From Oscillospiraceae bacterium (GTDB lineage Bacteria > Bacillota > Clostridia > Oscillospirales > Ruminococcaceae): DNA of 64,000 nt. Every line of letters starts with the position of its first letter. The first letter of the stretch is position 1. The translations under genes were made by a program, and so were the position numbers. This document shows positions 43,898 to 54,178 of the stretch, piece by piece. The DNA lies in NCBI GenBank assembly GCA_017532085.1, contig JAFXJT010000018.1, forward strand, positions 28,360-92,359, given 5' to 3'. The notes under the pieces were generated by a model, which worked only from the letters and a program-made list of their open reading frames with translations, was not told the origin of the DNA and searched no databases.

Positions 43898-44067
43898 TGC
43901 GAAGCTTTCATGGCACAGTATGCATGGCGTATCATTGGCCGTATTACTTTTTTTTCTGTTTATCATATGATTTTCACATTTATGATTATAATAAAATCAA
44001 AGGCAGTGCAGCAGACCTCTTACAAACTGCGGCAACTGCATAAAACCATAGAAAGAGGTGCATGACT

Positions 44068-45516
44068 ATGTTCCATGACAACGAACATGATAATCTGCAG
44101 GAGCCGATTCATAACCCTTATGAACAACAGCCTACCGCATCGGGCAGCTATTACTCTCCTCGTTCCGGAGATGCTGTGCCGCCGGTTGCCGAACACGATC
44201 CTGCCTCTGTCACACCGAAACGATCCTCCCTCAAAGTGGTGAAGGCTTTGGGTATTTTTGCCGGCATTGCATTTTTATCCTTTGCTTCCATTCAGTGTTA
44301 TCAGTTTGCAGTGGAGAATGCTTCTCTGAAAAAATTCTTCGGCAAAGAGGAAAGCGTTGCAGGTAGCACTGAAACAACAGAATCCAACGGTAAAAAAGAA
44401 AACGAAGACAAAGTGGATCATTCAGGAACTGCCAAGCCCAATGAAAATCAGACAGATTCTGTCATCACCCAAGACTGGATTGAACTTGCTGCCAGAAAGG
44501 ATGCACTGAGTATTCCCGATATTGTAGACAAAGTGACACCTTCCACTGTCGGTGTTTCCTCCACTTTTGTCTGGGAAGAACGCTATAATGATATGTGGGG
44601 CTTTGGTTCGCCTTCCACCTATGAACGCAGTGCTCCCGCAACCGGCACCGGCATCATTATGAGTACAGAAGGATATGTGCTGACCAATGCACATGTCATT
44701 TTCGATGAACAGTACGGCGGTGCTGCAAAGGAAATCCAGATTGTTCTCAATGAGGACTATTATGAGGGAGAAACACAAATTGCCGCTACAATCGTAGGCT
44801 ATGATACCGAAGAAGATATTGCTGTGCTGAAGATGAATACCAACCAGCAGCTCAAGGCTGCGGAATTCGGTGACAGCGATGCGCTGCGTGTCGGTGAATT
44901 GGTTATTGCCATCGGCAATCCGCTGGGACTTGATTTGTTCGGTTCCGTCACCACGGGAATTGTTTCGGCATTGGATCGTGAAGTCACCATCAACGAAGTT
45001 ACCATGTCACTGATCCAGACGGATACTGCTATCAACTCCGGTAACTCCGGCGGTCCCTTGATCAACAGCTATGGACAGGTAATCGGCATCAATTCCCTTA
45101 AAATGCACAGCAGCTATTCCGAAACTACCATAGAAGGTTTGGGCTTTGCGATTCCTATGGCGCATGCCAAAAAGGTAGTCGATGATCTGATCAACTACGG
45201 CTATGTCCGCGGAAAGCCCGTGATCGGTATTACCGGCCGTGATGTCTCCGAGGCAATTTCTCAGGCATATGGTCTGCCGATGGGCGTATATGTCACAGAG
45301 CTTACCGATGGCGGTGCAGCTGCACTGGCAGGAGTCAAAGTAGGCGATATTATTATTGCGGTCAATGGTGAAAGCGTTTCCAATTACGATGAACTGAATG
45401 CCGCAAAGAATGCTTTTAAGGCAGGCGATACCATTACCATTACGGTAGTACGCAATGGTCAGGATCACGATTGCCGGCTGACTCTGCAGGAGAAAAAACC
45501 CGAACTTGCACAATAA
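44068..45516 (+). CDS. HtrA/DegP-type membrane serine protease
   Basis: A 482-residue S1C protease with a cytoplasmic head (about 1-52), one membrane helix (about 54-78), a charged linker, a trypsin-like domain with His209 (TNAHV), Asp250 (EEDIAVLK) and Ser327 (INSGNSGGPL), and one C-terminal PDZ domain (about 390-470). It degrades or refolds misfolded secreted proteins, useful in a cell exporting large cellulosomal enzymes. ATG 44068 is nine bases after GAGG; ATG 44062 is three away. A -10 box TATAAT (43987-43992) has no clear -35. Confidence 0.94.
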   Translation: MFHDNEHDNLQEPIHNPYEQQPTASGSYYSPRSGDAVPPVAEHDPASVTPKRSSLKVVKALGIFAGIAFLSFASIQCYQFAVENASLKKFFGKEESVAGSTETTESNGKKENEDKVDHSGTAKPNENQTDSVITQDWIELAARKDALSIPDIVDKVTPSTVGVSSTFVWEERYNDMWGFGSPSTYERSAPATGTGIIMSTEGYVLTNAHVIFDEQYGGAAKEIQIVLNEDYYEGETQIAATIVGYDTEEDIAVLKMNTNQQLKAAEFGDSDALRVGELVIAIGNPLGLDLFGSVTTGIVSALDREVTINEVTMSLIQTDTAINSGNSGGPLINSYGQVIGINSLKMHSSYSETTIEGLGFAIPMAHAKKVVDDLINYGYVRGKPVIGITGRDVSEAISQAYGLPMGVYVTELTDGGAAALAGVKVGDIIIAVNGESVSNYDELNAAKNAFKAGDTITITVVRNGQDHDCRLTLQEKKPELAQ

Positions 45517-45623: not shown

Positions 45624-48584
45624 TCAAGAAACAAATCCGGAAAGCGGCAAGCCCAGACCCTTAATGCCATCCGCAACGATCTTTGCCACAACATTGGCAC
45701 CGGTTTCGGTGAAATGTGTAAAGTCCGTGCCGCCGGCGGTGGTGGAGCCCATATAATAGCTGCGAACCGTATTATATGCTGTTTGATTGAACTGTGTGGT
45801 CATTGCCTGACCCAGATCAAAATAAGGAATCTGATATTTGGCAGCCAGCATCTTGCAAGCGGAATCGATGTTGCGATAACCGACGCCAAAGGGCTGCGAC
45901 TGATTCTTAATGGACAGTGTGGGGCTCATAAGAATCGGTGTTGCACCTTTCTCCAATGCACCCTTGATATAGAATGTCATGTAATATTCAAACGATCCGG
46001 CCGCAGGATTATCCACATTGCCGCACACCGGAGCATAGCGCTCAGGCTGAGAAGATGCGCCATCGTTGATGCCGAAATCTACCAGCAGATAGTCACCTGC
46101 TTTGATGGTATCCAAAATGGTTGTCAATCTGCCGTTATCATAAAAGCTCTTGGAACTGCGACCTGCAATGGAATGATTGGAAACGGTGACATTGCTGTTG
46201 AAATAGTTGCCGAGATAATAACCCCAGCCCTGCTGCGGAGCATAGGACTCCCGGTAGGATTGGGCAGTAGAATCGCTGGCAATATACACAACAGGATTGT
46301 CAGAAGGTGTCCCGCTGGGACCGCCGCTCTGGTTGGGATCGTATGGCTCAGCAATGGGCTCATCGGTAAAGGTCAACCGCAGGAAGTCCACATTCGGACC
46401 GCCTTCCGCAGTATGAGAAACAAGGGAAATGGTATTATAGCCTGCTGTCAGCGGCAAAACCAATGCACGTTCCTCCCATGTTGTCCATGCAGAGGTGGTA
46501 AGGAAGCTTTGCAGCCAGACATCGCTCTGTCCGCCAACGGAAATCATCATTTGGCGGTCATTTGCAGAGCCATTCGCAATATTAAATGTGCAAAGGTAAT
46601 TGCCGGCCTGCGGAACCTTGACCGTAAAGGTCATTGCACTGCCCACCATATTATTCAGGTTGAGATATGCTTCACCGGTAAAGCCTGCATTGGTATTCTC
46701 ATACCAGCCCTCAATATAAGCCGCATCAATGGCATAATACTTGCGGTCGCTGAATGTGACCTGCTCACCCATAAGCTGCTTGATGAGAAGCACTGCATCA
46801 CTGATCAGAACGGTTTCATCACCGTTCAGATCGGAAGCAAGCTCCGCAGCGGAATCCGTAAAGCCGGATAACATACCACGCTTCATGAGGCTGATATCCG
46901 TTGCGGTGATCTGACCGTCATCATTCAAATCGCCCTGGAGATACACTGCATCATAGGTATTCTGATGCACTTCCACCAAACGCCATTTCTGACAGTCGTG
47001 TCCGTTGCTCTCCCATTCGTTGACATTCGCACCTTCGGTGGTCAGCGCAGAACCGACTTCGACGCAGCTGGTACCATCGGAAACACGAGTACGAATCGTA
47101 TAAATATTGTCTCCGGCGCCCATCAGCTTGAATTGCTGCGCAGTGCTGCCGCTGTCGGAATAAATACCGATATTGGTTCCGTTGGCAGCCTTTCCTTCAT
47201 ATACATCCAAAAGATAGGTGTTACCGTCCTCCAGCATGGAATAGAGACGATAATACCCGTCATCGGCGCTCATCATCTTCCAAAGATTCTTGCCCACCGG
47301 TGCGGAATCCTTGCTCTGACAGACATTGGTGCCGGCAGCAGCCACGCCGTCCTCTACGGTCAGATACAGACCGCTGTTCACATTCTGAAGCATATAAACG
47401 CTGCCATCTTCAAACTCAGCGCCGCCGGGTGTCACAGAGCCATCCATCTGCGAAACAATCATTTCTGCCAGAACCGTTGCACCGGAACGATTGGGATGCA
47501 GCGAATCTCCGCTCATATATAATGCAGTGGTTGCACTGGCACCAATCTTAAGACAGTGATTTTGCCACAGATTGAACAGGTCAATCACCTGCAGATTCAG
47601 TTCAGAGCCGATGCGATCCAAAGTACCGCCGAACCAGCGGCCGGTCAGCAGCGGATTGCGGGAACAATCGCCATCTCTGCCTTGCTGCTTCACAAGAATG
47701 ACCTTCATGCCCTTTGCCATGGCACGCTTTGCCATATCGGTTACAACATTATAATATTCCGTTTCATTGGAATAATTGGTATCATTGATGCCGATGGAGA
47801 TAAAGTAAATATCGCCCGCTTTTCCGTATTTTTCAATTGCAGCAAACTGTCCTGCGCTGACAAAGCCTGCGGCATATTGACCACTGGCAGCCATATTACG
47901 CACCTGCCAGCCGCTGTTGGCACCCAATACAGAGGGCAGCATCTGTCCCCAGCCTGCCTGCGCGGAGCTGTTCAGCGGATAGTAGTTGCAAACCGTAGAG
48001 TCACCGCAAATCCAGATCGTCGGATTCGTCTCGGTGCTGTCCGAGATCCGCTTGATTTCAAGCGCCGACAGGGTAAAGGCATAGCCCGATTTTCCTGCCA
48101 CACAGCAAAGATTCAGCTGACCATCGGTAATCGGAATCTGGAAGGTATCCGTAGCATTGTTGCCGGTCAGATTGATCAGCTGCAGCATACCTTCTGCCGC
48201 AACACTGGTACGCGTGGTATTGCCCAGCCACACGGTCACCTGATACAGACCATTGGGAACATCGGCACAGAAAGTAGCATTACCGTTATGTGTTGCATTA
48301 TTAAACTGCACCGCATCACTCAGTGCGCCGCTGCCGGAAGCGGATACATTGCTCACACTGCAGCCGGAGCTGAATCCATAGCCTGCGGATGCATTATAGC
48401 CGTTGGATGCGGAAACACCGGTATATCCGCCTGCAGTACCGCCGCCGCCGAAATCAAATTTCCAATAATCCGAAGCAGCGGATGCCGAATCCATCGACGG
48501 CATTGCCTGCATCATCACTGCCGACAACGCAAACGATGCTGCGAGCCCAAGCAGTCTTTTTGTCCATTTCTTCATAATGTTCAA
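45624..48584 (-). CDS. cellulosomal double esterase CE12-CBM13-dockerin-CBM35-CE12
   Basis: A secreted protein of about 986 residues. After a signal peptide (MKKWTKRLLGLAASF, cleaved near SASA) come a beta-sandwich (about 45-180), a first SGNH esterase of family CE12 (ICGDSTVC, GINDTNY, DSLHPN; about 190-395), a ricin-type CBM13 (about 410-560), a dockerin with two calcium loops (DLNDDGQITATD and DLNGDETVLISDA), a CBM35-like module (YYAIDAAYIEGW) and a second CE12 (ASDSTAQSY, DFGINDGA, DFTHFTETG). CE12 enzymes deacetylate rhamnogalacturonan and xylan. I recall the same order from R. flavefaciens. By spacing from GGGGGAG the start is TTG 48584; ATG 48575 is the alternative. Confidence 0.92.
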   Translation of the reverse strand: MNIMKKWTKRLLGLAASFALSAVMMQAMPSMDSASAASDYWKFDFGGGGTAGGYTGVSASNGYNASAGYGFSSGCSVSNVSASGSGALSDAVQFNNATHNGNATFCADVPNGLYQVTVWLGNTTRTSVAAEGMLQLINLTGNNATDTFQIPITDGQLNLCCVAGKSGYAFTLSALEIKRISDSTETNPTIWICGDSTVCNYYPLNSSAQAGWGQMLPSVLGANSGWQVRNMAASGQYAAGFVSAGQFAAIEKYGKAGDIYFISIGINDTNYSNETEYYNVVTDMAKRAMAKGMKVILVKQQGRDGDCSRNPLLTGRWFGGTLDRIGSELNLQVIDLFNLWQNHCLKIGASATTALYMSGDSLHPNRSGATVLAEMIVSQMDGSVTPGGAEFEDGSVYMLQNVNSGLYLTVEDGVAAAGTNVCQSKDSAPVGKNLWKMMSADDGYYRLYSMLEDGNTYLLDVYEGKAANGTNIGIYSDSGSTAQQFKLMGAGDNIYTIRTRVSDGTSCVEVGSALTTEGANVNEWESNGHDCQKWRLVEVHQNTYDAVYLQGDLNDDGQITATDISLMKRGMLSGFTDSAAELASDLNGDETVLISDAVLLIKQLMGEQVTFSDRKYYAIDAAYIEGWYENTNAGFTGEAYLNLNNMVGSAMTFTVKVPQAGNYLCTFNIANGSANDRQMMISVGGQSDVWLQSFLTTSAWTTWEERALVLPLTAGYNTISLVSHTAEGGPNVDFLRLTFTDEPIAEPYDPNQSGGPSGTPSDNPVVYIASDSTAQSYRESYAPQQGWGYYLGNYFNSNVTVSNHSIAGRSSKSFYDNGRLTTILDTIKAGDYLLVDFGINDGASSQPERYAPVCGNVDNPAAGSFEYYMTFYIKGALEKGATPILMSPTLSIKNQSQPFGVGYRNIDSACKMLAAKYQIPYFDLGQAMTTQFNQTAYNTVRSYYMGSTTAGGTDFTHFTETGANVVAKIVADGIKGLGLPLSGFVS

Positions 48585-48612
48585 AAGGTTCTCCCCCTTT
48601 ATTTCTTTAATA

Positions 48613-48763: not shown

Positions 48764-48795
48764 TTCAGAATGATTTAAGACTTATCCGTTATACT
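48764..48795 (+). promoter_or_regulatory. direct-repeat promoter of candidate sRNA 1
   Basis: TTCAG (48764-48768) and TTAAG (48775-48779) start 11 bp apart; the -10 box TATACT begins at 48790, 15 bp after the second box. There is no normal -35 box, which suggests dependence on an activator bound to the repeats. Confidence 0.55.
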
Positions 48796-48800
48796 AAAAT

Positions 48801-48897
48801 CAAGGTTGAGGAAACCTTGTTTCAAATCCCCCAATCCCCCCTATTTTGAATTCATTTCATCTTTTTGTGAGCTATGCGATTTATGCATAGCTTTTTT
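48801..48897 (+). ncRNA. candidate trans-acting small RNA 1
   Basis: About 97 nt. A 5' hairpin CAAGGTT-GAGG-AACCTTG is followed by a single-stranded stretch with two C-runs (48828-48832, 48836-48841) and a terminator stem AGCTATGC/GCATAGCT with a T6 tail. C-rich unpaired regions flanked by a 5' hairpin and a terminator are typical of Firmicute sRNAs that pair with Shine-Dalgarno sequences. No reading frame is present. Confidence 0.6.
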
Positions 48898-48904
48898 ACT
48901 TTAT

Positions 48905-48936
48905 TTAAGACTATTTTAATGATGCTGTATTATAAT
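48905..48936 (+). promoter_or_regulatory. direct-repeat promoter of candidate sRNA 2
   Basis: TTAAG (48905-48909) and TTAAT (48916-48920) start 11 bp apart; the -10 box TATAAT begins at 48931, again 15 bp after the second box. No normal -35 box is seen. Confidence 0.55.
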
Positions 48937-48941
48937 ACAGC
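48924..48941. promoter_or_regulatory. 18-bp perfect palindrome over the sRNA 2 -10 box
   Basis: GCTGTATTATAATACAGC is a perfect palindrome that includes the TATAAT box; it may be a repressor site or chance symmetry of the -10 region. Confidence 0.5.
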
Positions 48942-48942
48942 T

Positions 48943-49078
48943 ATGATCTCCTGGGTGTGCAATCTCAGGAAGATTTTCAAACCCCATTTCCCTATTTCTT
49001 ATTTCCCTATTCCATCTGATGTCATTTGCTTTTTGCTTCTGTGGCTGCTTCGATTTCGATGCAGCCTTTTTCTTTTTC
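48943..49078 (+). ncRNA. candidate trans-acting small RNA 2
   Basis: About 130 nt, with the same plan as sRNA 1: a 5' hairpin (ATCT-CCTG/CAGG-A-AGAT), a pyrimidine-rich unpaired stretch with CCCC and two TTTCCCTATT copies, and a terminator GGCTGC/GCAGCC with an interrupted T-run. No reading frame. Confidence 0.6.
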
Positions 49079-49100
49079 ATAAAACTTTACGATTCAAGTC

Positions 49101-49129
49101 TTGTATTTTTCAAAGATATCCTGTATAAT
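49101..49129 (+). promoter_or_regulatory. sigma-A promoter of the cotH-like gene
   Basis: TTGTAT (49101-49106), 17 bp spacer, TATAAT (49124-49129). Confidence 0.82.
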
Positions 49130-49179
49130 GAAACGGTATGCAAATCGGTATACTGAACAATGCGGAGGGATCATCCGAT

Positions 49180-50898
49180 ATGAAAAAACGATTTTTCATC
49201 ATATTACTGGCAACAGTGCTTTCGGGCTGTATGCTGACTGCTTGCAGCGGCAATTCCGGCAGCTCTCAGCAAGATGCTGCTTCCGTGGAAAGCAGTGCAT
49301 CCTTTGAACCCGTCGATGCCATGCGATTTACAAAAGGACTTGTTTCCGTAACAGAGCAGGGGTTTCTGACAAGCTCCTCGCTGCTGACCCTTTCGGCACC
49401 CGATGGTGCTGCCATATACTATACCACCGACGGCAGCGAACCGGATACCTCTGCAATGCAATACACAGAGCCGATTCCGTTTCAGGGATTGGTTGGGAAT
49501 TTTCCCAATTCCATCGTACTCAAAGCACGAGCTTATTTCGAAGATGGCTCTGTTTCGGAAGTCGGCACACGAACCTTTTTCTGTGCATCTGATGTGAAAA
49601 ACCGATATAAGCACGTGATTTTTTCTATCACGGGCGATCCCAAACAGCTGACGGAAGGACCGGATGGCATTTTATTCGGTGATAATGTGGAGCTGCGTGG
49701 AAAAGAAAGCGAACGCAAGGTCTATGTGGAAGCCATCAACCGTGACGGCAGCGTAATCTTTGAACAATACGCAGGCGCACGGGTATACGGTGCAGCCTCA
49801 CGATTCTCTGCAATCAAATCCTTGAAGCTTTTTGCCCGCAAGGAATATGATCCGGATCACGGACAGTTTGATATTGATGTATTCGGCACCACCGGAGCGG
49901 ATGGCGCTGTCATCCCGGAATATGACAAGCTTGTGCTGCGCAATTACGGCAATGATTTTCAGTTCGCATTTGTTCGGGATGAACTGAATCAGCGGCTGGC
50001 AGCAAAAGCCGGCTATACCGATTGTGAAGCTGTTGTGCCTGCTTTGGTCTATCTCAACGGAGCATATTACGGATTGATGTATCTGCACGAGACCTACTGC
50101 GATGATCTGTTCAAGGATAAATACGGTGCCGGAAACGGAAAATATGAGGTCCTGGAAGGCAAAGACGGCAAGATGAATGTGGAGGAAGAGGATGCCGAAA
50201 TGGCTGCCATCGCCACCACCTATAATACGCACTACGAGGAATTCAGCAAGGCTGACCTTCTGGATGATACCATCTATGCGCAGCTATGTGCTTTCATGGA
50301 TGTCGAAAACTATCTGCAAAACTTTGCATTCAATATTTATGTCAATAACAATGACTGGCCGCAGAACAACTTCAAATGCTATCGCTATTTTGCTGCCGAG
50401 GGAGAATCCTTAGGCACTGCCGAAGCGCGTCAGGATGGCAGATGGCGCTATTTGTATCACGATATTGATTTTTGTTTTTCGATTTATGAAATGGAAGAAA
50501 CCGGCGCATCCTATAATAATCTTGCGCAGATTTTAGATGCTGACAGCGATCGTTATTCCCCATTGTTCGCAAAGCTCATGGAACGTCCGGACTGCAGAGA
50601 CTTTTTCCTTGCTGAAATGCAGCGGCTGATGAACGGTGCCTTATCGGCAGATTCCATCATAGAGACATTGGATCATATGACAACCGAACGCTTTTTTGAA
50701 ATGCGCTATTATTTTGAATATCTGGAGAATCTGAAAAAGAAAAACAGCGATATCTGGATCTGGTATGAGGAATATCAGCGCAGAACAGACAATATCCGCG
50801 CCTTCGCCCGGCAGCGTGCCGCTTATATGGAACAATTCCTCAAAGAAGCATTCGCAGAATCCGCAGCCCAAACGGAGCTGCCTGACACCGCTTCATAA
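49180..50898 (+). CDS. CotH kinase family lipoprotein
   Basis: A 572-residue lipoprotein: signal peptide with lipobox MLTAC (Cys22), a chitobiase-type beta domain (DGAAIYYTTDGSEPD, about residues 75-140), then a CotH domain (about 160-540) with GARVYGAASRFSAIKSLKL, LRNYGNDFQFAFVRDEL, ALVYLNGAYYGLMYLHE and RYLYHDIDFCFS. CotH proteins are atypical protein kinases, first known from spore coats; extracytoplasmic versions are common next to VTC and DUF4956 genes, as here. GGAGG lies 11 bases upstream of 49180. Substrate unknown. Confidence 0.9.
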   Translation: MKKRFFIILLATVLSGCMLTACSGNSGSSQQDAASVESSASFEPVDAMRFTKGLVSVTEQGFLTSSSLLTLSAPDGAAIYYTTDGSEPDTSAMQYTEPIPFQGLVGNFPNSIVLKARAYFEDGSVSEVGTRTFFCASDVKNRYKHVIFSITGDPKQLTEGPDGILFGDNVELRGKESERKVYVEAINRDGSVIFEQYAGARVYGAASRFSAIKSLKLFARKEYDPDHGQFDIDVFGTTGADGAVIPEYDKLVLRNYGNDFQFAFVRDELNQRLAAKAGYTDCEAVVPALVYLNGAYYGLMYLHETYCDDLFKDKYGAGNGKYEVLEGKDGKMNVEEEDAEMAAIATTYNTHYEEFSKADLLDDTIYAQLCAFMDVENYLQNFAFNIYVNNNDWPQNNFKCYRYFAAEGESLGTAEARQDGRWRYLYHDIDFCFSIYEMEETGASYNNLAQILDADSDRYSPLFAKLMERPDCRDFFLAEMQRLMNGALSADSIIETLDHMTTERFFEMRYYFEYLENLKKKNSDIWIWYEEYQRRTDNIRAFARQRAAYMEQFLKEAFAESAAQTELPDTAS

Positions 50899-50935
50899 CC
50901 CGAACAGAAGCAGAAGCAAAAACGACACAGAAACA

Positions 50936-50980
50936 AACACCTCCTATGGTATCATAAAGCATACCATAGGAGGTGTTTTC
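50936..50980. terminator. bidirectional terminator
   Basis: AACACCTCCTATGGTAT pairs with ATACCATAGGAGGTGTT and is followed by TT on the plus side and GTTTGTTT on the minus side. Confidence 0.9.
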
Positions 50981-51028
50981 TGCTGTCTTTGCACAATGTC
51001 GGAGTTCTGTTTTGCTGTATCGAAACGG

Positions 51029-52432
51029 TTACCCCACAATAAAGAAGGTGATCTTTCCGGTAGAAGCAAAGGCTTGCGGTGCCGTGCCGCCGGAATAGCT
51101 GCCGCCGGTGGTAACATAATTGCTGGTATTACCGCCGCTGCTGCTGCCGCCCGTAGAAACGGCATACTGTCCGGAAGCAGTTAACCCTGCGCCGCCATAT
51201 ACCACAAACCGATAATCCCGAGGCGATGTCATGGTGAAAACAGGCTTGCCGTCAGCAGTCAGATGGCACAATTCCCCAGCCTTCCGATTGGTCAAAAAGT
51301 TCATGCCGATCACATTTGCGGTGGTAGTATTCACATCCGGCATACTGCAAGTATTGCCAATGGCATAAAACGTACCGCCCGTAAAAGAAAACACGCCATC
51401 ACAATAGATTGCACCCTTTTCTTCCCGCACGCCGCCGATCAGCACTGATGTGCCGCCATTGATCGTAATATAGCCTTCCGTCTTGATGCCGTTGGTACCT
51501 GCATCGCAAAACAGCTTGCCGCCATTGATCTCAATACCGTCATTGCAGTGCAGACCGCTCTTTGCCGATGTAATATGCAGTGTTCCGCTATTGAGAATAA
51601 TATCATCATCACTGCGGACACCATGTGCATAATTTGCGTGGATATTCAAAGTACCGCTGCCTTCAAAGCGAATGGTATCGTTGGTAAAGATCGCACCGCG
51701 ATCCTCCTCATGCACGCCGCCATCCGTGAAGCTGTTGGTCGTACCCGCAAGGGTAGTAACCGTAATATGCTTGACCTGCTGCACATTCAATGCCGAACCT
51801 TGAGAATTGGTAACATGCGCATTATCCAATTCCAGATAGACCTTTTTGTCATTGGTCAACACTTGAATCTGGCCATCATCCAATGTACCGCTGATGACAT
51901 AGGTGCCGCCTTTGCTGATGGTAATCGTGCTGCCCAGCACTGTGATGCCGGTGCCGGAATATTGTGCGGTAGAGCCTTTGAGATAAATATATTTGATCTC
52001 CTTTACCTCAGAGCTCTCCGGTGCAGAAGAAGACTCCTCCGGCGGTGTAGGCTGTGACGATTCCGTCGTACTGTTTCCGCTCTGTCCCCCCTGCGATCCC
52101 TGTGAGGATTCCGGTGCAGGATTGGAGGAAGAATCCGGATCCGGCACGCTGTTCTCAGAGCCATTCCCCGAGGATTCCGATGTATCGGGATCCGGCTTCG
52201 TGCTTTCATCCTGATTCAGGCTGTCGGATGCATGCTCACCCTTGCTGCTGTCATTCTGCGTCGATGCATCGGATTGCTGCGCAGCACTGCTGCTGTTTCC
52301 TAAGCTGCCGGCACCCGAAGCATCACTCCTTGCGGAACTGCCGCCTTCACAGGCTGTCAGCGACGCTGCAAGCAATACCGCACTCAACAGTGCCGCCAAA
52401 CGGCTTGCCCCATATTGTTTCCGTATGTTCAT
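51029..52432 (-). CDS. DUF4353 carbohydrate-binding lipoprotein (Cthe_2159-like)
   Basis: A 467-residue lipoprotein with lipobox SLTAC (Cys28), a long Ser/Pro/Asp/Glu-rich linker (about 30-145) and a right-handed beta-helix domain of repeated GI-x-x-N-D-x-I type rungs (AIFTNDTIRFEGSGTLNI, GVRSDDDIILNSGTLHI, GLHCNDGIEINGG, GIKTEGYITINGG). This is the DUF4353 family; C. thermocellum Cthe_2159 of this family binds cellulose and pectic acid with calcium. It ends in a Gly/Ser/Thr-rich tail. A hairpin separates it from the DUF4956 gene, so it may be transcribed separately. Confidence 0.88.
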   Translation of the reverse strand: MNIRKQYGASRLAALLSAVLLAASLTACEGGSSARSDASGAGSLGNSSSAAQQSDASTQNDSSKGEHASDSLNQDESTKPDPDTSESSGNGSENSVPDPDSSSNPAPESSQGSQGGQSGNSTTESSQPTPPEESSSAPESSEVKEIKYIYLKGSTAQYSGTGITVLGSTITISKGGTYVISGTLDDGQIQVLTNDKKVYLELDNAHVTNSQGSALNVQQVKHITVTTLAGTTNSFTDGGVHEEDRGAIFTNDTIRFEGSGTLNIHANYAHGVRSDDDIILNSGTLHITSAKSGLHCNDGIEINGGKLFCDAGTNGIKTEGYITINGGTSVLIGGVREEKGAIYCDGVFSFTGGTFYAIGNTCSMPDVNTTTANVIGMNFLTNRKAGELCHLTADGKPVFTMTSPRDYRFVVYGGAGLTASGQYAVSTGGSSSGGNTSNYVTTGGSYSGGTAPQAFASTGKITFFIVG

Positions 52433-52477
52433 ATCATCCCGACCCTTTCCGTATTTTGTATTCCATATAAAGATATG

Positions 52478-52508
52478 CGAAAAGACCGAGGAAGCCCCAG
52501 TCTTTTCG
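52478..52508 (-). terminator. hairpin between DUF4956 and DUF4353 genes
   Basis: CGAAAAGAC-TGGGG pairs with CCTCG-GTCTTTTCG on the minus strand; the T-run lies in the stem (TTTTCG), so termination may be partial. Confidence 0.6.
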
Positions 52509-52525
52509 TTTGTAAGCATTTGCAC

Positions 52526-53293
52526 TTATTTTTGTCGGACATCATAAATCTGATCGTCATAGCGATACAGTACCAATGTGACATTCAGATTGCCGTTAAG
52601 TGCACGAATATCATCAATGAACTTCTTCTGATCAGCATCTGCCTTGACTCGCACAGAATATACCAGATCAAATAATGTACCGAAATCCGTAGTTTTGACA
52701 CGGCGCAGCTTCCATGTAGTGGTATATTTCTCCATCACCTTGTCAAAAAGACCGTTGTAGTTCAAATTTTCGGGAATCGTGATCTTCAGTGTCATTTCCT
52801 GTACCGCAGGTGCAGCAAAATCCGTTACCTGCAGCAAAATCAAAACAGCAGAAAGGATCACAAAGAACAATGCCGCATAACCAACAAAACCCAGACCACA
52901 GACAACACCCATTGCCATAGCAAAGAAGATATACGAAATATCACGAGGATCTCCGGGCGCACTGCGGAAACGCACCAGTGAAAATGCACCGGTTAAACTA
53001 ATTGCAGCTGTCATACCGGCACCGCTGGTCAAAAGACACATCATAATAATCACGGTAGAAACCAATGCAGAAAGCATGGGCATCGTAAGGACATAGCTTT
53101 GCGTATATCCCACCTTGCGGTGCGTAAACATATAGACAAGACCAATCAGGAATCCGATGATCAGCGCACTCACCACACAGATCGTTACCTGTGCAACTGT
53201 CGGATAATTCAGATCAACCGCCGATTGATCGTGATAGATGCGTGCAAAAAGGTCTGCGGAATGAATCATTGATTTTGCTGCCAGATTATGCAT
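52526..53293 (-). CDS. DUF4956 membrane protein
   Basis: A 255-residue protein with about four membrane helices (about residues 38-155; SYVLTMPMLSALVSTVIIMM, SLTGAFSLVRFRSAPGDPRDISYIF as the DUF4956 signature) and a C-terminal cytoplasmic alpha/beta domain that resembles a regulatory ferredoxin-like fold. It nearly always accompanies a VTC gene and may form its membrane partner or channel. The ATG at 53293 is nine bases after AAAGGA and overlaps the VTC stop by 8 bp. Confidence 0.9.
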   Translation of the reverse strand: MHNLAAKSMIHSADLFARIYHDQSAVDLNYPTVAQVTICVVSALIIGFLIGLVYMFTHRKVGYTQSYVLTMPMLSALVSTVIIMMCLLTSGAGMTAAISLTGAFSLVRFRSAPGDPRDISYIFFAMAMGVVCGLGFVGYAALFFVILSAVLILLQVTDFAAPAVQEMTLKITIPENLNYNGLFDKVMEKYTTTWKLRRVKTTDFGTLFDLVYSVRVKADADQKKFIDDIRALNGNLNVTLVLYRYDDQIYDVRQK

Positions 53294-54044
53294 AAGAAAT
53301 CTTCCTTTCACTTTGTTGTGCCGCTTCGATTTGACGACGGATATGATTCTGATATGCCGTACCGTATTTTGAAAAGCTTCTGCGGCGAATCTCCAGAGCA
53401 GAAAGCGCCTCGCTCAGCCACAGTGGAATCGAACCGGGCACCTTAATCTCCATCAGGCGCTGATTCGGCAGAATCAATTGCTCACCGTAGCTTTCTTTGG
53501 CAAGAGAAAGTGCCTCGCGGCGTGCTGTGATCTTTCGGTCAAAGGTGAGTCGGAATTCCTTATCACCCTTACCAAAAAACGCTGCCCGCTGATAGCTGAT
53601 GTACTGTTTCGGAGCGCAGTCGTAATGATTCAGAAAAACATCCATTTCCTTCATAACCTGCTGCTGTATGAACGCTTCAAAATAGGGCTTTACTCGGGTC
53701 TGCAGATAAATCTCCGCCTCACGCAATGTCATGGCAACACGGCGCTTGGTGACAATACCGCCGACCTTTTTCTTCACTTCCAAAAAAACAGTGTCATCCG
53801 GCGATGCCGGCGAATAATAACTGCGCAGTCGAAGTTTTTCCTTGTAATACGGCTTTTCAATGGATTGACGAATGAGAAAATTATCCGGCGTATCAAAGTA
53901 AATATTGTAAATGCCATATTCACGTCCATCCACGCAATACTTATCCGGATTCATATGTTCATGAATCACCGGAAGCAACGCGTTGAATTGCTCCATACTA
54001 AGCAAATATTTCACTTCACGGCGCTGAAAGGTACTGATAGCCAC
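53286..54044 (-). CDS. VTC domain protein (polyphosphate polymerase-like)
   Basis: A 252-residue protein with the VTC fold, a tunnel-shaped triphosphate-tunnel relative of yeast Vtc4, which makes polyphosphate from ATP. Basic and acidic tunnel motifs are seen: RREVKYLLS, YNIYFDTPDNFLI, KEKLRLRSYY, FLEVKKKVGGIVTKRR, RLTFDRKITARRE and LMEIKVPGSIP near the end. The start is not obvious. GTG 54044 lies one base after the stop of a tiny upstream frame and gives a family-like N-terminus (AISTFQRREVKYLL); GTG 54059 is in frame too. The strong ribosome site is 57 bases upstream, before an in-frame TGA (see findings). Confidence 0.88.
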   Translation of the reverse strand: MAISTFQRREVKYLLSMEQFNALLPVIHEHMNPDKYCVDGREYGIYNIYFDTPDNFLIRQSIEKPYYKEKLRLRSYYSPASPDDTVFLEVKKKVGGIVTKRRVAMTLREAEIYLQTRVKPYFEAFIQQQVMKEMDVFLNHYDCAPKQYISYQRAAFFGKGDKEFRLTFDRKITARREALSLAKESYGEQLILPNQRLMEIKVPGSIPLWLSEALSALEIRRRSFSKYGTAYQNHIRRQIEAAQQSERKISYA

Positions 54045-54045
54045 A

Positions 54046-54110
54046 TCATTGTGTCGCACGCACGCCGTTCATCGAATCGGCGGTATGATGCGGAGCACGT
54101 CCCCTCCTTT
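54046..54110 (-). promoter_or_regulatory. orphan ribosome site and two tiny reading frames before the VTC gene
   Basis: AAAGGAGGGG (54110-54101) precedes GTG at 54098, which opens a nine-codon frame (LRIIPPIR after the start) ending in TGA at 54071-54069, in the same frame as the VTC gene. An ATG overlapping that stop (54072) opens an eight-codon frame ending at 54046, one base before the VTC GTG at 54044. Translation could be passed along by coupled reinitiation. Confidence 0.45.
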
Positions 54111-54146
54111 TTTTGTTTTTTATCAGACAAAAAGCGTGATAGTACC

Positions 54147-54178
54147 ATCATAAGCAAAATATCTTAAATCAACCTTAA
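54147..54178 (-). promoter_or_regulatory. direct-repeat promoter of the VTC-DUF4956 operon
   Basis: On the minus strand TTAAG (54178-54174) and TTAAG (54167-54163) start 11 bp apart; a -10 box TATGAT begins at 54152, 15 bp after the second box. This is the layout of the two sRNA promoters at 48764 and 48905. Confidence 0.55.

Follow-up and report, generated by a model that had tools for sequence, protein, structure and literature searches.

We describe a promoter type that, in gut and rumen Ruminococcus, is shared by two small RNAs (sRNA1 and sRNA2) and by an operon encoding a VTC-domain protein and a DUF4956 protein, and that is probably read by a regulator lacking the usual phosphate switch. 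The three promoters were found in a 64,000-nt stretch of DNA from an Oscillospiraceae bacterium (GCA_017532085.1, contig JAFXJT010000018.1, positions 28,360–92,359, forward strand), referred to below as the window. Taken as a whole, our explanation is that all three sites serve an activator of the OmpR/PhoB family, that an orphan member of this family binds them, and that the two RNAs resemble the streptococcal small RNAs known as csRNAs; we hold it with moderate confidence.

In all three promoters (Table 1) the spacing is identical: two boxes of the TTTAAG kind start 11 bp apart, and the −10 box starts 15 bp after the start of the second one. By inspection, no −35-like hexamer is seen in any of them. 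The box coordinates, both distances and the missing −35 box had been given in the original prediction and are correct on re-reading. The search pattern proposed there, TTNAG-N6-TTNAG-N10-TANNNT, fits two of the three promoters and misses that of sRNA2, whose second box is TTAAT. Taken literally, this pattern occurred on average 0.07 times and at most twice in 60 dinucleotide shuffles of the window, compared to two observed occurrences. Loosened to fit all three promoters, it occurred on average 0.47 times and at most three times, compared to three observed. Thus the excess of the motif within the window alone is moderate. The three-promoter observation is confirmed, and it is conservation among relatives that carries the claim, not the window statistics.

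The consensus in approximately 30 related species is TTCAGGTTCATTTAAG-N10-TATAMT, its invariance being partly due to the pattern by which the sites were collected. Of 29 VTC loci, 27 have the motif upstream of the gene, and 27 of 30 genomes contain sRNA2 together with the motif (plain DNA search alone recovered sRNA2 in 12 of 30). A sequence-only model of 36 columns, R1, was built from 20 sites of sRNA1, sRNA2 and the VTC operon. Run on the assembly that contains the window (1.98 Mb, 83% complete), with 150 of 640 first-look candidates scored, R1 yields exactly three matches at E≤1, and these are the three promoters. All three belong to the R1 training set, and therefore the informative part of this result is the absence of further matches.

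The R1 matches at E≤1 sum to 138 over the genus. Forty extra ones, all lying outside the training set, were classified by the downstream gene; many of the remaining matches coincide with known VTC, sRNA1, sRNA2 and regulator loci, the weak ones having been read in part. The classified matches precede 11 cohesin genes, 9 genes of an orphan OmpR-family regulator, 8 genes encoding dockerin–Cthe_2159 proteins, 8 copies of sRNA2, one VTC paralogue, one NAGPA gene and two other genes. Pfam confirmed cohesin in 11/11 cases, four of which also had dockerin above the cut-off, and dockerin together with Cthe_2159 in 8/8. The targets of the motif class are surface and fiber-degradation genes (cohesin, dockerin–Cthe_2159 and VTC).

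The original prediction had read the sites as suggesting a phosphate or envelope-stress regulon that includes the small RNAs. In favor of its phosphate version, a PhoB/PhoP regulon of phosphate starvation, tandem repeats of 11 bp upstream of the −10 box are the PhoB-type layout, and VTC proteins are polyphosphate-polymerase-like. However, no phosphate-uptake gene occurs among the 40 classified matches, and the motif was found at none of 21 PF12849 (PstS-like) loci, including both true pstS–pstC ones; this is a thin test, given that only two of the 19 PF12849 loci inspected are pstS–pstC-like. We consider the phosphate regulon very improbable.

The second element of that prediction, an OmpR/PhoB-type activator acting on direct repeats one helical turn apart, is supported by the orphan OmpR-family regulator, which carries the same site itself. 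Close copies of this regulator (44–100% identical) were found by protein search in 22 of 30 genomes. The motif lies 64–92 nt before the start codon in all 22 complete copies, and for each of them none of 300 shuffles reached the observed score; a 23rd copy, cut by the contig edge in G042, has the site too. These upstream sites are independent of the R1 training. As a control we used eight unrelated regulators, six of which did not score above all shuffles.

The three orphan regulators tested with Pfam all contain a receiver (PF00072) and a Trans_reg_C winged helix (PF00486). The receiver is degenerate: the second acidic residue is missing in 22/22 proteins and the conserved Lys in 11/22, and the phospho-Asp position, read from the alignment by eye, is occupied by D in 11 proteins, by E in 8, and by H, N and S in one each. 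If a pseudo-receiver is defined by the loss of one or more of the five conserved residues, the receiver of the orphan regulator is one. A histidine-kinase motif was found within 1.5 kb of none of the 22 orphan regulators, compared to 22 of 23 regulators similar to CiaR. The orphan regulators group on the phylogenetic tree as a single clade (100/100), which has a long stem and lies next to the canonical L264 and L265 of sister genera. Pseudo-receivers and receivers lacking the aspartate have been described (PMC12632262, PMC4395418). In our case D, E, H, N and S all occur at the phospho-Asp position within one genus, and thus the loss is partial and recent-looking.

The same data bear on the possibility that an alternative sigma factor, rather than an activator, recognizes the 16-bp element together with TATAMT. 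The strict spacing and the lack of a −35 box would agree with that. Nevertheless, the element has the form of an 11-bp direct repeat, as read by OmpR-family dimers, and its −10 box is a housekeeping one. The motif is tied to the gene of an OmpR-family regulator, and none of the 40 classified matches was seen to precede a sigma-factor gene. We find this possibility hardly credible.

The orphan regulator was undetected in seven of the 30 genomes (G000, G007, G012, G015, G018, G021 and G045). Among these seven are G007 and G015, which have neither sRNA2 nor the motif upstream of VTC, and G012, which has neither sRNA2 nor a close VTC gene. The chance of this three-genome overlap, calculated by hand and ignoring relatedness, is 35/4060 = 0.0086. 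Since the assemblies are incomplete and the three genomes are possibly related, we treat the co-loss as supporting, not decisive.

Several observations speak against the orphan regulator as the binder. No copy of it was found in the window's own, 83% complete assembly. In G018, G021 and G045 the motif is kept and no orphan regulator was found. Two of the eight unrelated control regulators (L170 and L172) also beat all shuffles. Further, the window's own genome encodes a CiaR-like regulator with a kinase (L004), and the recognition helix of this class, compared by eye, agrees with the CiaR helix in 10 of 13 residues, compared to 6 of 13 for the orphan regulator. In an alternative explanation, the CiaR-like response regulator (the L004 class, 80–100% identical throughout the genus), paired with a histidine kinase, binds the sites directly, and the orphan regulator is no more than one of its targets. 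The helix NVEVYVSFLRKKL of this class is near the published CiaR helix VVEVYVSKVRKKL; among 28 regulator loci checked, regulators of this class in sister genera (L266, L270 and L280) stand under the motif; and the CiaR-like regulator, like the orphan one, is missing from G007 and G015. On the other hand, 21 of its 22 promoters within the genus are ordinary and have no motif. Moreover, it was undetected in G005, G013 and G017, which keep the motif, although their assemblies are 75–84% complete, and a fragment of it is present in G012. We regard direct binding by the CiaR-like regulator as less likely but as a serious possibility, and retain the orphan regulator as the preferred binder. As a separate observation, in one genome (G042) a CiaR-like regulator is preceded by a motif-like site (L312/L170).

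We applied R1 to 40 other genera of the family and obtained matches in eight of them at E≤0.02. Of the 12 matches, three precede VTC genes and three precede candidate C-rich RNAs, with a possible fourth such RNA at another. A canonical regulator accompanied by a kinase accounts for one match, secreted proteins for two (one of them dockerin-like), and the last two lie upstream of genes that show no evident link. Most of these sites contain a perfect TTTAAG-N5-TTTAAG, and two of the RNAs have a CCCCC core and a terminator in the style of sRNA1. Therefore, the pairing of the site with VTC genes and C-rich RNAs predates the genus. A second module was observed for a paralogous regulator–kinase pair (47–50% identical to L004), with TTCAGC-N5-TTCAGC upstream in four of seven loci (L320, L321, L322 and L323). 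The paralogous regulator is divergent to a VTC paralogue in G003, G006, G007 and G013, and the two lie on different contigs in G004, G012, G020, G024 and G044. Given this pair beside a second VTC gene, VTC genes are repeatedly linked to the same regulator superclade.

The promoter geometry is identical to that of the Streptococcus CiaRH regulon, where csRNAs were searched for as TTTAAG, a gap of 5, TTTAAG, a gap of 10 and TATAAT, followed by a terminator (PMC3091779). The letters of the CiaR boxes are exact in the sister genera and have drifted to TTCAG-N6-TTTAAG in the genus studied here, and the same paper describes CiaRH as apparently undetected outside streptococci. HP1043 (HsrA) of Helicobacter pylori is likewise an orphan OmpR-family regulator with a degenerate receiver, and it recognizes TTTAAG repeats with 5 bp between them (PMC5253667, PMC8345958). 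It differs in the phylum and in the targets, and no small RNAs are placed under HP1043 in its accessible descriptions.

In the predicted fold of both window RNAs, an open C-rich stretch lies between a 5' hairpin and a terminator hairpin (fold z −3.26 for sRNA1 and −2.05 for sRNA2). The terminator stem of sRNA1 varies compatibly among relatives, and the core of sRNA2 is conserved in the alignment of 22 copies. Of 25 genomes of the genus, 24 have a conserved copy of sRNA1, and none of 16 genomes from other families does. The search of 197 genomes of the order with the sRNA1 model produced one strong match (its own) and three weak ones (25.1–28.8 bits). One of the weak matches, L247 from a genome of another family (G133), carries an sRNA1-like core, CAAATCCCCCAATCCCC. 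Neither RNA has a match in Rfam at gathering scores. The highest-scoring weak match, AniS, reached 22.7 bits against a cut-off of 50 and was treated as a chance match. The RNAs share with csRNAs the 5' hairpin, the open anti-Shine–Dalgarno stretch and the terminator, whereas the csRNA nonamer [A/C]UCCUAAA[A/C] (core TCCTAAA) is present in 0/24 copies of sRNA1 and 0/22 copies of sRNA2. Therefore we do not class them as csRNAs despite the csRNA-like layout.

The membership of sRNA1 in the motif class is less firm than that of the VTC operon and sRNA2. The original prediction of promoters shared with sRNA1 stands for the window, where the sRNA1 site fits, and does not extend to most relatives, in which the sRNA1 promoter is an array of five to six GTTCAYA units in an 11-bp register (e.g. 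L022, L018 and L016). R1 recovers only five of 24 sRNA1 promoters at E≤1, the window's own and four others. Among the loci compared, in-phase runs of three units were confined to sRNA1 loci, 15 of the 24 having one. Moreover, sRNA1 and its array are kept in G012 and G015, both without the orphan regulator. All this detracts from a common regulator and favors a separate PhoB-like regulon for sRNA1, in which a different regulator would read the five to six units, and the resemblance to the other promoters would reflect shared ancestry or convergence. At the same time, the window's genome and its closest relative have two −10-proximal boxes fitting the shared motif, and in sister genera the plain TTTAAG repeat precedes RNAs (L262 and L252) whose core is likewise CCCCCAAUUCCCC and whose terminator is similar. 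A second reader of the GTTCAYA array is likely; a separate sRNA1 regulon is in our opinion a conceivable but less probable outcome.

Judging by predicted pairing, sRNA1 looks built to silence the neighboring gene of a secreted enzyme. All 24 sRNA1 copies contain CCCCC. A divergent secreted gene adjoins sRNA1 at 20 of the 24 loci, and every one of these 20 genes has GGGGG within the 22 nt upstream of its start; in the window this GGGGG is the complement of positions 48593–48597. The six divergent neighbors checked with Pfam, including that in the window, are all GDSL-esterase-like. In G022 the esterase is replaced by a GH9 gene, also with GGGGG, and in G002 the contig ends. The background frequency of GGGGG at the ribosome site was estimated on genes sampled from G003 (7 of 292). 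Compared to this, 21 of 21 neighbors have GGGGG (Fisher test, 4.7e-27, with relatedness ignored and G009 and G012 left out). Among the 48 genes of the window, the strongest predicted pairing with sRNA1 is that of the Cthe_2159 gene (−26.5 kcal/mol). The VTC leaders have GGGGG shortly after the transcript start in 23 of 29 cases (leaders L068–L092), compared to 63 of 4000 random 75-nt windows, and it is retained in L078 and L087, which have lost the promoter motif. Other results call for caution about this targeting. The 21 neighbor genes with GGGGG come from related species, and in G009 and G012 sRNA1 has other neighbors, without GGGGG. Genome-wide, sRNA1 shows a weak predicted preference for secreted genes (median −14.1, compared to −12.9 for the other genes, p 0.02), and GGGGG precedes 3/54 secreted and 4/238 other genes (p 0.12).

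We propose the following mechanism. The regulator would bind as a dimer to a pair of TTCAG/TTTAAG half-sites, which are separated by one helical turn and lie ten bases upstream of the −10 box, and would thereby substitute for the −35 contact. The orphan regulator would be both the binder and its own regulator and, given the loss of catalytic residues from its receiver, may need no phosphorylation to work. The small RNAs would act in the manner of streptococcal csRNAs, with the open C-rich stretch pairing with G-rich ribosome sites, and the first target of sRNA1 would be the neighboring secreted-enzyme mRNA with its GGGGG. With the regulator active, the VTC/surface and cohesin components would go up, and the RNAs would trim the translation of selected secreted enzymes. 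More tentatively, the orphan regulator of cellulosome-bearing Ruminococcus could co-ordinate the VTC/DUF4956, cohesin and dockerin–Cthe_2159 genes with the two csRNA-like RNAs, coupling scaffold display to enzyme trimming via GGGGG sites.

Cohesin and dockerin proteins, which are parts of the ruminococcal cellulosome, stand here under the motif. The term "response regulator" is absent from the items matched in the open-access literature on ruminococcal cellulosomes, and no report of such a regulon in Ruminococcus was found in the accessible part of the open-access literature. To our knowledge, little is known about the control of cellulosome and surface genes in ruminal Ruminococcus. Because the present finding comes with a site, a regulator candidate, two small RNAs and targets identified by name, every step can be tested. 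If true, it would be a second lineage with the CiaR/csRNA logic, in Clostridia, with a pseudo-receiver replacing the two-component input. The canonical regulators of the sister genera and the decayed receivers described here form a natural series for studying how response regulators function after the loss of phosphorylation. The function of pseudo-receivers without phosphorylation has been termed a mystery (PMC12632262).

Table 1. Promoters, small RNAs and genes discussed in the text (window coordinates)
Feature	Position	Strand	Details
sRNA1 promoter	48764..48795	+	TTCAG 48764–48768; TTTAAG 48774–48779 (TTAAG box from 48775); −10 TATACT 48790–48795; direct reading
sRNA1 (start approximate)	48799..48899	+	5' hairpin ~48801–48819; C-tracts 48828–48832 and 48836–48841; terminator hairpin 48869–48893 and T-run
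sRNA2 promoter	48904..48936	+	TTTAAG 48904–48909 (TTAAG from 48905); TTAAT box from 48916; −10 TATAAT 48931–48936; direct reading
sRNA2 (start approximate)	48937..49071	+	5' hairpin; C-rich core ~48979–49013; terminator hairpin 49043–49066 and T-run
VTC operon promoter	54147..54178	-	TTAAG 54178–54174; TTTAAG 54168–54163 (TTAAG from 54167); −10 TATGAT 54152–54147
VTC-domain protein (start codon uncertain)	53286..54059	-	PF09359, E 2.9e-45
DUF4956 protein, overlapping the VTC gene end	52526..53311	-	PF16316, E 5.4e-16
Cthe_2159 carbohydrate-binding protein (likely start 52432)	51029..52432	-	PF14262, E 3.2e-43
Secreted, dockerin-bearing GDSL-esterase-like protein (gene divergent from sRNA1; proposed sRNA1 target)	45624..48575	-	Pfam

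A terminator-like hairpin, seen by eye, lies at 52478–52508 between the DUF4956 and Cthe_2159 genes. The Cthe_2159 gene had at first been read as the third gene of the operon, and since this hairpin precedes it, its membership is uncertain. The protein encoded at 44062–45516 of the window, a few kb from the small RNAs, is one that we take to be an HtrA/DegP-type protease. Although htrA counts among the classical targets of CiaR, the region upstream of the gene at 44062–45516 showed no motif. The role of the VTC–DUF4956 genes in Ruminococcus is unsettled. Clusters of pel genes have accessory genes for DUF4956, polyphosphate polymerase and CotH proteins (PMC7112168). Unlike in those clusters, no pel operon was identified here, and regulation is absent from the accessible part of that account. 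As in them, VTC-like, DUF4956 and CotH genes stand together in the window, with the CotH gene converging on the VTC gene set from the opposite side.

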